Positions 78 through 41,400 of a stretch of 41,400 bases of DNA are shown here, in pieces. The stretch is from Companilactobacillus tucceti DSM 20183 (GTDB lineage Bacteria > Bacillota > Bacilli > Lactobacillales > Lactobacillaceae). Every line of letters begins with the position of its first letter. The stretch's first letter is position 1. The translations under genes and the position numbers were made by a program. Location: assembly GCF_001434665.1 (NCBI RefSeq), contig NZ_AZDG01000022.1:1-41400 (forward strand). The letters are read 5' to 3'. Below the pieces are notes generated by a model. That model was given only the letters and a program-made list of their open reading frames with translations, was not told where the DNA came from and did not search any database.

Positions 78-1889
78 TTACTCTACAGTAACACTCTTAG
101 CAAGGTTTCTTGGTTGGTCAACATTGTTGCCACGTGCCAAACTTGCATAATAAGCAATCAATTGTGCAGGCACAACACTGACGATTGGTGAAATCATTTC
201 ATCAATTTCAGGAACAACCACTTGGTCACCTTTTTCAGCATACTTCTTATTTGAAATAACAAGTACATGAGCACCACGAGCTACAACTTCTTGAATATTA
301 CCACGAGTATGTGCAGCACCAATACCATCATTAATGTAAGCAAATACTGGAGTATCTTTTTCAATCAATGAAATTGTACCATGCTTCAATTCACCAGCAG
401 CAAATCCTTCAGAGTGAATGTATGAAATTTCCTTTAACTTCAAAGCAGCTTCAAGTGAAAGTGCATAATCAATACCACGTCCGATATAGAAGGCATCTTT
501 CTTACCTGTCAAATAATCATCAGCAATATCTTTAAACTTATCTTTTTCATCAACAATTGTTTGAATTGCATTAGCAGCAAGAGCTAATTGTTCTTGTAAG
601 TCTAATTCTTTAGCAGCCTTAACACCTTTGAATTCGCCAACTGCTTTAGCAAGAACAGCTTCAACAGCAATATTAGCTGTATATGCCTTTGTTGAAGCAA
701 CGGCAATTTCAGGCCCAGCGAGAAGCTCCATTGTATATGTAGCTTCACGTGAAAGCGTTGAGTTTGCAACGTTTGTCATTGTTAAACTGTGATATCCAAG
801 TTCATTAACTTTAACAAGAACTTGTCTACTATCAGCAGTTTCACCACTTTGTGACAAGAAGATAAAGAATGGTTTCTTTGAAAGTTTTGGCATATGGTAA
901 CCAAATTCACTGGCAAGTTCAACATCAACTGGAACGTCAGCTAAGTTTTCAAAAATATCTTTACCAACTAAAGCAGCGTGATAACTTGTACCAGCGGCAA
1001 CAATGTATAGACGATCAGCACTAGCAACATCTTCTAGCATTTTTTGATCAACATTGATCTTCTTACCGTCAAAATAGTTAGATGAGATTTTTCTCATAAC
1101 AGCTGGTTGTTCATCGATTTCTTTCAACATGAAAGTATCGTAAGTACCCTTTGAAATATCACTAGCATCAAGTTTTACAATATATGGATCTCTTTGAACT
1201 GCTTTACCATCTAATGTACTAATAGCTACGCTATCTTTCTTTAAGATAACAACTTCACCATCATGGATTTCAACAAACTTATGTGTACTTTCCAACATAG
1301 CCATGGCATCTGAACAAATAACATTAAAGCCATCACCCAAACCAATAAGTAAAGGACTCTTATTCTTAGCTACGAAGATACGATCAGGATTTTCTTTATC
1401 AACTAATGCAAAAGCATATGAACCTTCAATTAGTGACAATGCCTTTCTGAAAGCTGCTTCGGTATCCATATTTTCTTTAACAGCAAAATAATCGATCAGT
1501 TGAACAGCTACTTCAGTATCAGTTTGACTCTTAAATTCAACATCACTTAAATACTTTTCTTTAAGTTCAGCATAGTTTGTTAAAACACCATTATGAACTA
1601 AGTAGAAACGATTATCTGATGAGAAATGAGGATGGGCATTTGCAACTGTTGGTTCACCATGAGTTGCCCAACGAGTATGTCCAATTCCAATTAATCCTTG
1701 AACGTCATCTGAAACTTCATTTTCAAGGTCACTTATTTTACCAACTTCTTTTACAAGAAAGTCTTTGCCGTTTTCATTATTTACGTAGATACCGGCTGAA
1801 TCATATCCACGATATTCAAGTTTTTCAAGTCCGTTTAATAAAATTTTAGTTGTATTTTCATTACCTACAACACCAACAATTCCACACAT
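78..1889 (-). CDS. glmS: Glutamine--fructose-6-phosphate aminotransferase (isomerizing)
   Basis: Makes glucosamine-6-phosphate from fructose-6-phosphate and glutamine, the first committed step to UDP-GlcNAc and peptidoglycan; cytoplasmic. The 603-residue length is normal for the family. Residue 2 is the N-terminal nucleophile Cys (MCGIVGVVGN), followed by a class II glutamine amidotransferase domain to about residue 220 containing GHTRWATHG. Two SIS sugar-isomerase domains follow at about 285-425 and 455-590 (SQSGETADSRQ, SEGFAAGELKHG), and the protein ends in the typical DQPRNLAKSVTVE. It is monocistronic, with its own promoter and a long upstream region carrying GntR-like motifs, and is separated from glmM by a terminator. 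No glmS ribozyme is recognisable in the leader. Family and function are certain. Confidence 0.98.
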   Translation of the reverse strand: MCGIVGVVGNENTTKILLNGLEKLEYRGYDSAGIYVNNENGKDFLVKEVGKISDLENEVSDDVQGLIGIGHTRWATHGEPTVANAHPHFSSDNRFYLVHNGVLTNYAELKEKYLSDVEFKSQTDTEVAVQLIDYFAVKENMDTEAAFRKALSLIEGSYAFALVDKENPDRIFVAKNKSPLLIGLGDGFNVICSDAMAMLESTHKFVEIHDGEVVILKKDSVAISTLDGKAVQRDPYIVKLDASDISKGTYDTFMLKEIDEQPAVMRKISSNYFDGKKINVDQKMLEDVASADRLYIVAAGTSYHAALVGKDIFENLADVPVDVELASEFGYHMPKLSKKPFFIFLSQSGETADSRQVLVKVNELGYHSLTMTNVANSTLSREATYTMELLAGPEIAVASTKAYTANIAVEAVLAKAVGEFKGVKAAKELDLQEQLALAANAIQTIVDEKDKFKDIADDYLTGKKDAFYIGRGIDYALSLEAALKLKEISYIHSEGFAAGELKHGTISLIEKDTPVFAYINDGIGAAHTRGNIQEVVARGAHVLVISNKKYAEKGDQVVVPEIDEMISPIVSVVPAQLIAYYASLARGNNVDQPRNLAKSVTVE

Positions 1890-1907
1890 TGTTTAAAACC
1901 TCTCTAA

Positions 1908-2088
1908 ATCGGTATAGTTTTTATATTTTATATTGGTCTAGCCAATTAACATACGTAGACCATTTGGATAACAAAGCCTAGAATACTAATTAACGTGGTT
2001 TATGTCAACTACTTTTTAATAATTTATACGTATTTTTAGTAAATGGTATACATAATAGATACCAAAATTGGTATTGGTATAAACCGAT
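1908..2088 (-). promoter_or_regulatory. GntR/NagR-like operator motifs upstream of glmS
   Basis: Several sequences resemble the GntR-family amino-sugar operator (palindrome around TGGTATAGACCA). The clearest is ATTGGTATAAACCGAT at 2073-2088; a shortened one is ATTGGTCTAGCCAAT at 1932-1946. Partial sites lie at 1908-1923 (ATCGGTATAG half), around 1957-1964 (AGACCATT half) and as a spaced TGGTAT/ATACCA pair at 2044-2064. Two lie above the predicted promoter and three in the leader. NagR control of glmS is established in some streptococci and lactobacilli; here it is inferred from motifs alone. Confidence 0.45.
1980..2008 (-). promoter_or_regulatory. glmS promoter
   Basis: On the minus strand a perfect -35 (TTGACA, 2003-2008) is followed after 17 bp by TATTCT (1980-1985, 4 of 6 consensus bases). 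This predicts a start near 1973 and a leader of about 80 nt before the glmS ATG. It is the best sigma-A-type promoter in this intergenic region. Confidence 0.6.
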
Positions 2089-2160
2089 TACATTTTCATC
2101 ATGTGATTTTATTTACTTAAAAGTTATATTTTGTAACTGTTTAAACAATTTTCAATACAA

Positions 2161-2196
2161 AAAAAGATCAGAACCTACTTAGGCCTGATCTTTTTT
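2161..2196 (-). terminator. Rho-independent terminator of the cdaA-cdaR-glmM operon
   Basis: A GATCAG/CTGATC stem (2166-2171 with 2185-2190), with an inner CCT/AGG pairing, is flanked by A and T tracts. It begins about 20 bp after the glmM stop on the minus strand. Being symmetrical, it could work in both directions. Confidence 0.8.
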
Positions 2197-2215
2197 GTAA
2201 AACAATTTAATGTAA

Positions 2216-3571
2216 CTAATTTAATTCATTCTTAACTACTTCAACGATTTGATCACAGTAATTATTAACTTTTTCTTCAGTTGAAGCTTCACACATAACT
2301 CTCAATAGTGCTTGTGTGCCACTAGGACGAACGAGAACTCTTCCGTCACCATCCATCTCATCTTCAACAGTTTTAATGATATCTAAAATTGGTTGATGTT
2401 GTTTCCATGAGTTCTTATCTTTTACTGGAATATTAACCAACTTTTGTGGATAAACTTTCACTGGGGCTGCTAATTCTGACAAGCTCTTGCCAGTTTCTTT
2501 CATAACATGTAGTAAATGGATACCTGTTAGCATTCCATCACCAGTATTCATATACTCGTATAACACGACATGACCTGATTGCTCTCCACCGATGTTATAA
2601 CCATTCTCACGGATCTCTTCGACAACGTGACGGTCTCCAACTGCAGTTTGAACATACTTCATGTCATTAGCTTCAATTGCCTTATAAAGGCCTAAATTAC
2701 TCATTACGGTAGTTACAATAGTATCTTTCTTCAAACGTCCACCATCATGAAGATATTTACCTAAAATGAACATGATCTTATCACCATCAACGATATTTCC
2801 TTCTTCGTCAACAGCAATACAACGATCTCCATCTCCATCAAATGCCAAACCGGCAACAGCAGAATCAGATTCCTTAACTTTTTTTGCTAAAGCTTCTGGA
2901 TGTGTAGATCCAACGCCCTTATTAATATTGATTCCATCTGGATGTGAAGCCATAATATCAAAATCAACATCCAAATCAGCAAACAAAGTACTTGCTAAAC
3001 GACTTGTTGAGCCATTTGCTGTATCTAAAACAACATTCATGTCACTAAGATCATCTGATAATGTTTGCTTCAAGAATTGAAGATACTTTTGTGCACCCTC
3101 TGGATAATCAGATACACTACCTAATCCTTCGGCTGAAGGTCTAGGCAAAGTATCTTCTTTTGCATCTAGTAATTCTTCTATTTCATCTTCAACGTCATCA
3201 GGTAATTTATAACCATCTGATCCAAAAAACTTAATTCCGTTATCTTCGGCTGGATTATGTGAAGCTGAAATCATAATACCAGCATCAGCTGAAACAGCTC
3301 TTACAAGATAAGCTACAGCAGGAGTTGTAATAACATCCAAATTCAAGACTTCAATACCTACAGAAAGCAATCCTGAAATCAAACTTTCTTGTAGCATTTG
3401 TCCAGAAATACGTGTATCTCTTGCTACTAAAACACGTGGATGTCCATTTTCATTTTCAGAATGTTGTGTTAAAACATATCCACCACATCTACCTAATTTA
3501 AATGCTAATTCTGGACTTAGTTCTTTATTAGCAATTCCTCTAACTCCATCTGTCCCAAAATATTTTGTCAT
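2216..3571 (-). CDS. glmM: Phosphoglucosamine mutase
   Basis: Converts glucosamine-6-phosphate to glucosamine-1-phosphate for UDP-GlcNAc synthesis. The protein opens with [12 protein letters not shown] and carries the phosphoserine loop [16 protein letters not shown], the metal-binding loop FDGDGDR, the sugar-binding GGEQSGH and the C-terminal phosphate-binding [12 protein letters not shown]. From this ATG it is 451 aa, the usual GlmM length. An in-frame TTG five codons upstream gives a longer frame, but the Shine-Dalgarno-like GGGGGT sits about 7 nt before the ATG, so I chose the ATG. It is the last gene of cdaA-cdaR-glmM; GlmM is known to bind and down-regulate CdaA in Firmicutes. Confidence 0.97.
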
Positions 3572-33473: not shown

Positions 33474-33710
33474 GCTTTTTTATGATTAAAGAAATCCATT
33501 CCATCAACACAAAATAGGTCTTCTCCTTTTGTTTTTCCTCAGCTTGCTACTAAACGCGCAACCTAACACAGCTTTTTCTGATTAAAGCAAACAATTCCAT
33601 CAATCCAAAATCAGATTTCTCCTTTTATTTTTCTCAAACTTGCTACTAAACGCGCAACCTAACACGGTCAGCTTTTTCCGTTTAAAACTAACAGCCCCAT
33701 CAATCCATTC
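33474..33710. repeat. Two and a half tandem repeat units of about 97-100 bp
   Basis: Unit 1 (33474-33570) and unit 2 (33571-33670) are about four fifths identical by eye, each beginning GCTTTTT and ending in an identical 27-bp block (33543-33569 and 33639-33665; core CTACTAAACGCGCAACC). A third partial unit begins at 33671 and runs into the hairpin at 33692. No open frame of note crosses them. Confidence 0.85.
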
Positions 33711-33765
33711 GGATTGATGGGGCTGTTTGCTTTAATACTCGAAAGCTGACCGTGTTAGGTTGCGC
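33652..33765. terminator. Long nested hairpin between convergent genes
   Basis: The outer arms are a perfect 22-bp inverted repeat (33652-33673 with 33744-33765; core CAACCTAACACGGTCAG). The inner stem is a perfect 15 bp (33692-33706 with 33711-33725) with an ATTC loop; the connecting parts also match imperfectly. The inner hairpin is a likely terminator for araC (plus) and pepD (minus). The right outer arm is an inverted copy of the tandem repeat block. Confidence 0.8.
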
Positions 33766-38670: not shown

Positions 38671-39750
38671 TTATTGAATAATTTCTAAGTCGTCTGGATA
38701 TTTATTCAAGTTTTCGTATCCATCTTCAGTAACGATTACCAAATCTTCAATACGAACTCCAACTTCACCAGGAATATAAACACCAGGTTCAATTGAGAAA
38801 ATGTTTCCTACTTCACAAACATTGTGGTTAGCAGTTGAAACGTCACCTGTTTCATGATCTTCGATACCGATAAAGTGTCCAAGACGATGTGTGAAGTATT
38901 CTCCATAACCTTTTTCAGTAATGTAATCTCTAGCAGCTGCATCAAGTGTAGCTAATTCAACACCTGGTTTGATAAGTGCCATTGCACGTCTCTTACCTTC
39001 TAGAATTGTTTCGTATACATCACGAGATTTGTCAGACACTTCTTTGTAGAAGAATGTACGTGTCATATCTGAACAATATGAATCTCTTACACAACCAATA
39101 TCAACAACAATACTGTCGCCTGGTTTTAATCTTGAGTCGTCTGGTTCTTGATGGTGTGGGTCTGCTCCGTTTGCACCATAAGCAATGATAGGATCGAATG
39201 AATAGCCTGAGTCACCTAATTCTTTGTATTTTTCACCAAGTCTTTCAGTGATTTCGATTTCTGTTAAATCTTTTGAAAGTTCATGCTTAACAAAATCGGT
39301 AGCCAATTCATTGTCAGCTTGTGCCTTACGCATAAGGTCTTTTTCTTCTTCATCTTTGATTGCACGTGCATCATCAATGATTTCAGATCCGTTGCCTAAT
39401 TTAGCATTTGGTACAAGTTCCATTAAGTGAAGTAAGAAGTGTGATGGCCAGTTCTTATCAATTCCAAATGAACCATTAACATCACAGTAATCTAGTACTT
39501 TCTTAACGCCATCATCAATATCATCGATGAATACTTTTTCAATTCCAATATCTTCTGTAATTGGGAATAACTTGTTTACAACAAGTGTATTCTTACCGTC
39601 AGCTCTAATTACTAAAACAAGTAATCTTTCGCCTGGATGGATCCATAATCCAGTAAGATAGAAAATTGCTGTAGGATCTGAGATCAATAATTGATCATAT
39701 CCCTCTTCCTTCATCTTGTTGGTAATGTTCTGAACACGACTATCTTTCAT
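38671..39750 (-). CDS. pepQ: M24B Xaa-Pro dipeptidase, second copy
   Basis: Prolidase-type metallopeptidase, 359 aa. The creatinase-like N domain is followed by metal ligands in IVVDIGCVRDSYCSDMTRT (two Asp), HRLGHFIGIEDHE (His), FSIEPGVYIPGEVGVRIEDLV (two Glu). AYGANGADPHHQP-like residues (YGANGADPHHQEP) match PepQ prolidases better than the first copy does. First gene of the operon pepQ-pip-POT-M24-pepD; a G-rich ribosome site (GGGGG) precedes the ATG. Confidence 0.94.
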   Translation of the reverse strand: MKDSRVQNITNKMKEEGYDQLLISDPTAIFYLTGLWIHPGERLLVLVIRADGKNTLVVNKLFPITEDIGIEKVFIDDIDDGVKKVLDYCDVNGSFGIDKNWPSHFLLHLMELVPNAKLGNGSEIIDDARAIKDEEEKDLMRKAQADNELATDFVKHELSKDLTEIEITERLGEKYKELGDSGYSFDPIIAYGANGADPHHQEPDDSRLKPGDSIVVDIGCVRDSYCSDMTRTFFYKEVSDKSRDVYETILEGKRRAMALIKPGVELATLDAAARDYITEKGYGEYFTHRLGHFIGIEDHETGDVSTANHNVCEVGNIFSIEPGVYIPGEVGVRIEDLVIVTEDGYENLNKYPDDLEIIQ

Positions 39751-40171: not shown

Positions 40172-40393
40172 ATGTGATTTTCTCACAATATGTACATTCT
40201 ATTTAAATATATTTTTTTCATAATCAAACTGCACGGATATATTCAACGATTCGGATACTCTATGTTGAAAGTGAATCTATTACTATCTTCTAGCAAAACT
40301 GGTGTGACGGGTTAAATTGCTAATATCTACATACTTTTTTGACAAGTTTCTACTTATTATAATGTTTAAATTCTAAATAGATTAAATGTTGCC

Positions 40394-40563
40394 GTCTCTG
40401 GGTACAATAAATGCTTACGCTGTGGGGATCGATTGGAGCCTCGGTCTCCAATCTCGATTTTGAACTTCGCAAAGTACGCGAATTTCAAAACTCGTCCCGT
40501 TGTGTAAGGGATAAATCACTAACACAACCTTCACTGCTATCAGCATTTATTGTACCCAGAGAC
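40394..40563. ncRNA. Cloverleaf-like structured element (candidate small RNA or MITE-like repeat)
   Basis: The outer arms form a perfect 22-bp inverted repeat (40394-40415 with 40542-40563; core CTGGGTACAATAAATG). Inside it a weaker stem joins 40419-40427 to 40529-40537 (six Watson-Crick pairs, two G-U on the plus strand, one mismatch). Three hairpins follow: 40431-40453 (8 bp, GATTGGAG/CTCCAATC), 40458-40490 (12 of 13 pairs, 7-nt loop) and 40499-40528 (7 bp, GTTGTGT/ACACAAC). A TATAAT on the plus strand at 40358-40363 and a promoter-like sequence on the minus strand at 40583-40611 both flank it, so the strand is unsettled. I recognise no known RNA family and no target-site duplication. Confidence 0.6.
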
Positions 40564-40582
40564 TCATCTACCTGATATTTTT

Positions 40583-40611
40583 AATATAGTAGAATCAAAA
40601 ATCACATCCAA
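40583..40611 (-). promoter_or_regulatory. Minus-strand promoter candidate beside the cloverleaf element
   Basis: TTGGAT (40606-40611), a 17-bp spacer and TATATT (40583-40588). The predicted start is about 40576-40570, just outside the closing stem, so a transcript would begin with the element and could end at the hairpin at 40126, roughly 450 nt. Confidence 0.4.
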
Positions 40612-41064
40612 TTACTAATTCGTAGTAACAATATCACAGTTAAAAATTTTAGTATCAGATTTACAGTCCAAGCCACTTATGTATATAACATATTTTCTCT
40701 TCTTAAAGATTAATTCTTTGATTTTTTAATGTTAACGTTTCAATTATTAAAAATTTCAATAAACATTCGATTATTTTTAGATTGATAGATATAATTTTCA
40801 CATTTACTTTTTTCATCTTATAGTACTCTTATCACACTATTTAGTATCTAAAAGGTTATCGATAATCAATCATCGATTCACTTTATATACTCATTTATTT
40901 TTGTTAAATAATTGAAACTCAATATTTGAGCGTTGATATATCAAGTATTTAACGATTGTTAAAAAATGATATTGCATTTTATCTACTTTTGCGATACTCT
41001 CTACAATTCAGTTTCCTTGATTATCATATTTCAATTGATTTGATCATCTTCAATACGCAATATT

Positions 41065-41142: not shown

Positions 41143-41400
41143 ATGAAAATTAAAGCTGCTGTAGTTGATAAAGTTAATGATCCATTCGTTATTAAAGATG
41201 ATGTTGAACTAGCTGACCTTCAAGATGATGGTCTTCAAGTTAAAGTCGTTGCTTCTGGTATTTGCCACTCTGATGAAGCTCTTAGAAAAGGTGACGCTGC
41301 CTTTAGTTTCCCTGTTGTCCTTGGACATGAGGGTTCTGGTATCGTTGAAAAAGTTGGTAAGAATGTTGAGAACTTTAAAGTCGGTGACCACATTATCATG
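41143..41400 (+). CDS. Zinc-dependent alcohol dehydrogenase, N-terminal part
   Basis: The first 86 codons of a medium-chain (MDR) alcohol dehydrogenase; the gene runs off the window. The N-terminal catalytic domain shows the first catalytic zinc ligand in SGICHSDEALR (Cys) and the second in LGHEGSGIVEKVG (His with the adjacent Glu), then VGDHIIM. The related zinc enzymes reduce aldehydes with NAD(P)H; the exact substrate class cannot be told from this part. The ribosome site GAGGAG lies 10 nt before the ATG. A long AT-rich upstream region with direct repeats suggests regulated expression. Confidence 0.9.
   Translation, partial: MKIKAAVVDKVNDPFVIKDDVELADLQDDGLQVKVVASGICHSDEALRKGDAAFSFPVVLGHEGSGIVEKVGKNVENFKVGDHIIM

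Follow-up and report, generated by a model that had tools for sequence, protein, structure and literature searches.

A cloverleaf-forming repeat of Companilactobacillus tucceti and related Lactobacillaceae, probably a mobile or formerly mobile DNA element

The window analyzed here, a stretch of 41,400 nucleotides of Companilactobacillus tucceti DSM 20183, contains an element of 170 nt (40394-40563) for which a cloverleaf-like fold had been predicted from the nucleotide sequence. The original prediction left two possibilities, a structured RNA or a short non-autonomous transposable element. This raises the question of whether the cloverleaf is kept as an RNA or as a DNA structure, and how it came to lie at this locus. 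The reading favored here, with moderate confidence, is that the element represents one copy of a non-autonomous DNA cloverleaf repeat that is mobile or once was. Its parts are the following.

40390-40393, plus strand: TGCC, the start of the conserved 5' terminal box (consensus approximately TGCCGCCTCCRG) at the outer end, from the flanks of 116 copies; homology starts here in many copies
40394-40415, plus strand: 5' arm of the outer stem, variable among copies and perfectly paired with 40542-40563, from the fold; complementary in 189 of 194 copies
40419-40427, plus strand: 5' strand of the second stem with the conserved motif GCTGTGGGG, carrying both G-T pairs, from the fold and the conservation in alignment A1
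40431-40453, plus strand: hairpin 1, a covarying stem with conserved top AGCC/GGTCT, from fold and covariation
40455-40494, plus strand: hairpin 2, a covarying stem in which a central C-T mismatch is commonly kept, from fold and covariation
40499-40528, plus strand: hairpin 3, with TGTAA and TAACA largely conserved, from fold and covariation
40529-40537, plus strand: 3' strand of the second stem, within CCTTCACTGC, from the fold
40542-40563, plus strand: 3' arm of the outer stem, from the fold and flank comparison; the usual CTAG/CTAA end box after it is degenerate here (ACTCATC)
40396-40561, plus strand: extent of the R1 covariance-model match (155 bits); R1 was built from 49 sequences, among them the window copy

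The two outer arms are exact reverse complements over 22 bp, and the RNA minimum-energy fold of the 170 nt consists of 65 pairs in the outer stem, the second stem and three hairpins, which bears out the predicted architecture. For the plus-strand RNA, an energy of -81.1 kcal/mol was obtained, compared to -35.9 (sd 3.7) for shuffled sequences (z -12.1), and none of 200 shuffles was as good; as had been supposed, such a cloverleaf is not expected of random AT-rich DNA. The minus strand of the window copy folds equally well (-82.4, z -11.2), and with energy parameters for single-stranded DNA a z of -12.9 was obtained. Exactly two G-T pairs are present in this fold, 40425-40531 and 40426-40530, both in the second stem where they had been noted.

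The element is flanked by the gene for an M24 peptidase (38671-39750, minus strand) and by a plus-strand gene with its ATG at 41143. No open reading frame of at least 60 aa is listed between the two, in agreement with the predicted absence of coding capacity. The 5' box conserved in the family starts at 40390 and thus slightly outside the 170 nt originally delimited. When 40225-40623 was compared to the loci L114, L115 and L116, about 3-4 kb of these three close relatives was found to be missing where the window cloverleaf lies. In G018, the relative for which the genes of this segment were named, the counterpart between the peptidase gene and the next gene codes for a GH88 hydrolase, an MFS transporter and a TIM-barrel protein. 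Because the three relatives carry about 3-4 kb of other DNA at this position, the window locus is unusable as an empty site. At 33477-33765 of the window, a second palindromic repeat was observed, with 55-nt arms (GCGCAACC...GGTTGCGC), 4 nt spacing and 85% complementarity, which overlaps two 93-nt direct repeats. A sequence resembling this second repeat lies near a cloverleaf at L118:10498-10728, and the L118 segments akin to it match many places in G018 and G005.

By BLASTN, 13 copies of the element, including that of the window, were identified in its own genome at E below 1e-6, and matches were obtained in 17 of 100 relatives, the own genome included; the multiple copies for which a BLASTN check had been proposed are thus present. 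An exact-pattern scan of named genomes gave 34 stretches, all from Companilactobacillus species. The covariance model R1 was built from 49 diverse copies (alignment A1). Over 11 stretches of the own genome it gave 25 matches, 7 of which are weaker wrong-strand matches at the same places, which leaves 18 distinct places (at least 18 in the genome). Within the genus, R1 matched 34 of 36 genomes (E <= 0.001), with a best E below 1e-30 in 14, and no match at this threshold was obtained in G007 and G034. At least 79 candidates each were counted in G002, G005, G006, G009, G010, G021 and G029, and the numbers vary widely from species to species; since both strands of a copy can be counted and part of the candidates was scored, the numbers of R1 matches are neither exact nor complete.

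In the family Lactobacillaceae, scanned with stricter filters than the genus and with 11 instead of 79 candidates scored per genome, R1 matched 68 of 251 genomes (E <= 1e-4) from 12 of 40 genera, its own included, of which the own genus and four others were inspected at the level of the sequences. The best match lies below 1e-20 in 29 of the 251 genomes, from five genera. R1 scores up to 42 bits when a true copy is read on the opposite, wrong strand, so that the genomes with the weakest matches may hold only other palindromes. The repeat is present in at least five genera: in the loci of the four other genera, the layout of the cloverleaf is the same as in Companilactobacillus, and the words of its junctions and loops recur with variation (GGGGACCG, AGCC/GGTCT, CTCG, CGTCC, TGTAA, TAACA and TTCAC).

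A known RNA family was rejected, as had been anticipated in the original prediction, since Rfam 15 gave no match at the window element, even at E up to 5, and none at the cloverleaf copies of 30 further loci, some of which lack a copy. Rfam matches in the scanned loci were otherwise confined to tRNAs (window, L333) and a PyrR site (L332). An origin from plasmids or phages was also rejected, because BLASTN against 72,556 plasmid and 50,697 phage records gave no match to the element; an exact search of viral contigs with one 38-base core string gave no match either.

Common to the copies are the core and two end boxes, approximately TGCCGCCTCCRG and CYTCCGGCTAGTTTATT. The arms between end box and core change in sequence from copy to copy and keep their complementarity. 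A complementarity score of at least 20, with G-T and A-C treated alike in the scoring, was reached in 189 of 194 copies versus 308 of 1924 mis-paired controls in which arms from different copies were combined; these 194 copies, like the 247 copies described below, were gathered mostly around BLAST or HMM hits and are not a random sample. Because the arm sequence changes from copy to copy, these perfectly paired arms do not correspond to the terminal repeats that a classical MITE would have.

RNAalifold identified 50 pairs in alignment A1, 45 of them with two-sided changes. In alignment A2, with 38 copies from the four other genera, two-sided changes are present in 47 of the 50 pairs, which was equalled by none of 500 shuffles, 89.5% of the pairing cells pair (65.1% in shuffled alignments), and a covariation score of 0.596 was obtained, compared to 0.169 for shuffled and 0.067-0.107 for slid alignments; these figures lean towards R1, because A2 was fitted to this model. 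The stems thus show the compensatory changes that are looked for in structured RNAs. However, two-sided changes are not specific for RNA, since a DNA palindrome would give the same.

In the stems of functional RNAs, G-U pairs are tolerated and A-C pairs are not. For control, tRNAs were counted, with 6 in a first set and 43 in a second. The 43 distinct tRNAs of the collected loci, mainly from the own genome, contain 902 Watson-Crick pairs, 64 G-T and no A-C. For the arms of the repeat (positions 3-19 from the core, 189 copies), 2956 Watson-Crick pairs, 27 G-T, 69 A-C and 87 other mismatches were counted, and for the core stems of 194 copies 7759, 250, 236 and 312, respectively, with 91 of the 250 G-T cells in a single T-G pair. 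Arms and core stems together have 305 A-C and 277 G-T. In the other genera, A-C was found 67 times versus 34 times for G-T. Between co-directional genes, one strand is expected to be transcribed; the 15 solo copies in this position have 24 A-C and 16 G-T with the common T-G pair set aside, which holds 6 more G-T. The consensuses of 13 clusters (247 copies, 83 of them in one cluster, with arms readable in 9 of the 13) still have 35 A-C and 19 G-T, with 59 others, which speaks against mere decay after insertion; some of the A-C and G-T cells arise from misaligned diverged copies (others: 312 in the core stems, 59 in the consensuses).

The purging of A-C expected of a structured regulatory RNA was thus not found in the stems of the cloverleaf. 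Since A-C is about as common as G-T, and the tRNAs have 0 A-C against 64 G-T, the covariation does not point to RNA; its interpretation as selection on an RNA was not supported and was given up. By this measure, the stems behave as a DNA palindrome would. The two G-U pairs of the window copy, which had been taken to argue for an RNA, lose this meaning when the other copies are considered. The A-C excess in the arms, which is G-T on the complementary strand, may reflect a strand preference or a mutation bias. Template switching from arm to arm is a mechanism for the fast correction of arms. Strong correction of this kind would hide selection on an RNA, so that an added RNA role is compatible with the balance of G-T and A-C.

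Copies are unevenly distributed among the gaps between genes. In 37 loci, mostly chosen for holding copies and with genes taken from simple ORF calls, the element is present in 26 of the 93 gaps between convergent genes, in 38 of the 407 between co-directional genes and in 10 of the 88 between divergent genes (chi-square p = 6e-6). With the start of the element estimated as core minus 38, it lies -10 to +25 nt from the stop codon in 33 of 59 cases with a same-strand upstream gene, and otherwise in 3 of 37; a separate count gave the same trend. This location behind genes is in keeping with insertion at sites of least harm. It would also be expected of an RNA element of the 3' UTR, transcribed with the upstream gene, which shields or processes the 3' end of the mRNA or aids termination, the covariation being due to selection on the RNA. 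Such a role is possible but doubtful. It is further favored by the strong covariation, by some orthologous copies that were kept with conserved cores, and by L178 and L179, where on inspection the cloverleaf lies between the stop codon of a thioredoxin-like gene and its terminator. However, on the sense strand A-C equals G-T in frequency in the arms, in the core, in the copies of other genera and in the solo copies between co-directional genes, unlike in the tRNAs; the upstream gene is on the opposite strand in 37 of 96 cases; several copies sit, as judged by inspection, behind a terminator-like hairpin; and most relatives lack a cloverleaf at the orthologous thioredoxin-like gene. This gene, identified by its WCGPC motif, was inspected in 30 of the 36 genomes, with a cloverleaf within about 50 nt past the stop codon in three (L178, L179 and L180) and a weak R1 match farther on in a fourth (L203, 46.6 bits); most of the other relatives have, on inspection, only a terminator-like hairpin. 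In L181 (G002), a remnant of a cloverleaf was seen by eye, with the core gone and the arms abutting, which suggests loss by deletion across the hairpins. Behind the thioredoxin-like gene in L193 (G019) and L195 (G020), long segments look structured by eye, one with a cloverleaf-like layout; R1 gave no match at these two loci at E <= 0.001.

In 21 of 22 gaps with two copies, the copies are in convergent orientation, four of them between divergent genes; solo copies are also numerous. Convergent doubles were identified in other genera as well (for example, L319, L329 and L336), in addition to a direct double in L340. The arms differ between the two members of a pair, and in two related pairs of G029 the cloverleaves align and the spacer does not.

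Presence and absence at orthologous sites were observed. In G029, a segment of 332 nt with a cloverleaf is bordered by GGTA at either end, and G010 and G006 lack this segment at the identical position. A convergent pair that the own genome carries is missing from G018, where the flanks are too diverged to fix the junction. The earlier suggestion of a short non-autonomous transposable element is, in kind, largely borne out by the many copies, by this presence and absence, and by the one insertion with a short duplication. A tail of about 130 nt in the G029 insert has no repeats in the collected loci, and comparisons of spacers and tails among copies did not reveal one fixed mobile unit; this insert is the only clean insertion with a duplication that was found. 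Target duplications around pairs showed no excess over shuffled controls in the 20 usable of 80 pairs: 14 have none, four have 2 bp, one has 3 bp and one has 6 bp (0.0 expected for 6 bp). Site 1 in G010 was not counted as an empty site, since it looks like a deletion scar in which part of one arm remains.

Species may carry copies of different subfamilies at one and the same site, and among 13 site pairs compared the arms are unlike in about half. Some orthologous copies have persisted with better conservation than the DNA downstream of them. In L042/L043 the core is 96% identical, the arms 88 and 96% and the downstream sequence 41%; the values for L135/L136 are 87% for the core, 88 and 76% for the arms and 28% downstream. 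The arms of L047/L123 agree to 81 and 84% and differ, on inspection, by paired changes, and the core at 72% is no closer than in random copies (mean 71%, 25 random pairs).

Several copies in G002 are carried within units bounded by 22-bp terminal repeats, GGTTCTTTCTNAANTTTGGTTA, and at one such unit (L175) an 8-bp direct repeat was found. In L317 of G006 (1327-3153), the gene for an ISL3-family transposase of 608 aa is flanked by the 22-bp ends of these cloverleaf-carrying MITEs; a further pair of such ends was observed outside the transposase gene. A second type of terminal end was identified in G006 and G010. Judging from these sequences, a minority of copies is moved as cargo of MITEs with ISL3-type ends. 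The whole repeat could accordingly be a classical MITE, that is, an insertion sequence that has lost its interior, retains its terminal inverted repeats and is moved in trans by the DDE transposase of a resident element, with the cloverleaf being incidental. The units in G002 and G006, the direct repeat and the many dispersed copies without coding capacity would agree with this explanation. It is nevertheless improbable: the ISL3-type ends (65 in G002, 22 in G006 and 2 in G000, at two per unit) are fewer than the cloverleaf matches, none of them was seen at the window copy, R1 does not match the ISL3 element, and two G029 copies match dozens of places in G010 over about 190-215 nt, a length that barely exceeds that of the cloverleaf.

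RAYTs belong to the Y1 transposase family. Y1 transposases (PF01797) were identified in 18 of the 36 genus genomes, with no match in the copy-rich genomes G000, G002 and G006. Mobilization of the RAYT/IS200 type was rejected as a general explanation, because Y1 transposases do not track copy number. A partner enzyme for the repeat was not found in this analysis.

Highly improbable is the view that the copies are old inserts with no present function and no mobility, in which the arms stay complementary through template switching in replication alone. The balanced counts of G-T and A-C and the core-deleted copies (L181, and site 1 in G010) would fit such neutral palindromes. However, the own genus and four others have similar bases in junctions and loops, for which arm correction alone is an insufficient explanation, and the match numbers differ widely between species.

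As a mobile or formerly mobile DNA repeat, the element would be a unit of about 170-200 nt that is still spreading, or formerly spread, across the genomes of Lactobacillaceae and probably settles often immediately 3' of stop codons. What is conserved would be a cloverleaf formable in DNA, either in single strands, when DNA is replicated or transferred, or by cruciform extrusion, and this DNA hairpin would be the form that matters. It would consist of two short terminal boxes and an outer stem of free sequence with kept complementarity, and the conserved nucleotides of junctions and loops look like a possible recognition surface. A putative structure-reading recombinase may have mobilized the cloverleaf. 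The complementarity of the arms may be held by purifying selection on the hairpin, by arm-to-arm template switching, or by both. A bolder and rather doubtful extension is a new kind of mobile DNA with ends recognized by their shape and not by their sequence: cloverleaves with sequence-free outer stems, set as a convergent pair, would bracket arbitrary DNA, and a putative structure-reading recombinase of lactobacilli would move such units to the 3' ends of genes. Were this true, base-pair covariation of textbook grade would exist without RNA function.

The repeat is an abundant part of several lactobacillus genomes and is absent from Rfam 15. Covariation, normally strong evidence for a functional RNA, occurs here alongside a balance of G-T and A-C that points to DNA. 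Two matters are testable now, namely which enzyme reads the folded-DNA repeat and what share of the RNAs predicted from covariation are DNA hairpins.

In the literature, no paper on this cloverleaf repeat was found among the matches listed, subscription journals lying mostly outside the coverage. In integrons, attC sites have a conserved structure with free stem sequence, extra-helical bases and conserved end boxes (GTTRRRY/RYYYAAC), and one folded DNA strand is read and recombined by the tyrosine integrase. By analogy, the cloverleaf repeat may be likened to attC in its kept structure, free stem sequence and conserved end boxes. It differs in the boxes themselves, which are TGCCGCC and GGCTAG and not GTTRRRY; on inspection, the attC boxes GTTRRRY/RYYYAAC were not found at the shared ends, TGCCGCCTCCRG and CCGGCTAG.

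REP/BIME elements and REPINs are described as palindromic extragenic repeats in alternating or inverted pairs, with REPs of 20-40 bp (PMC3116915, PMC3733652). A similar inverted arrangement of two units is present in the cloverleaf repeat (21 of 22 convergent), in addition to many solo copies. In contrast to that system, the copy-rich genomes named above are without a match to the Y1 domain.

A catalogue of bacterial stem-loop repeats with a common fold, published in 2008, includes Lac-1 from Lactobacillus johnsonii, and in the passages on these repeats neither Companilactobacillus nor the other genera found here are seen (PMC2267715). The likeness of Lac-1 to the cloverleaf repeat is one of catalogue description, the Lac-1 sequence being uncompared (PMC2267715). 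For the Bacillus cereus group, bcr1-bcr3 are described as dispersed intergenic repeats of high copy number, likened to MITEs and frequently forming part of UTRs or of the spaces inside operons (PMC3446304), and for bcr1 a length of 147-167 bp and a predicted common structure are given (PMC2267715). By these descriptions, with the sequences uncompared, bcr1-bcr3 resemble the cloverleaf repeat in being dispersed and of high copy number, and bcr1 also in its length and predicted structure (PMC3446304, PMC2267715). The cloverleaf repeat, as far as these accounts go, is distinguished by an outer stem that changes and yet stays paired, by its presence in several genera and by convergent doubles.

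In Streptococcus pneumoniae, BOX, RUP and SPRITE are reported as short structured repeats, over-represented between convergent genes, with SPRITE close to the 3' ends of genes; they are given as almost entirely absent from other streptococci, and the terminal repeats of BOX and RUP, which pair with each other, are presented as structures of the transcribed form (PMC3049150). As portrayed there, they are like the cloverleaf repeat in being structured and enriched between convergent genes, and SPRITE also in lying near 3' ends. Unlike them, the cloverleaf repeat spans genera, and its stems were judged by the balance of G-T and A-C.
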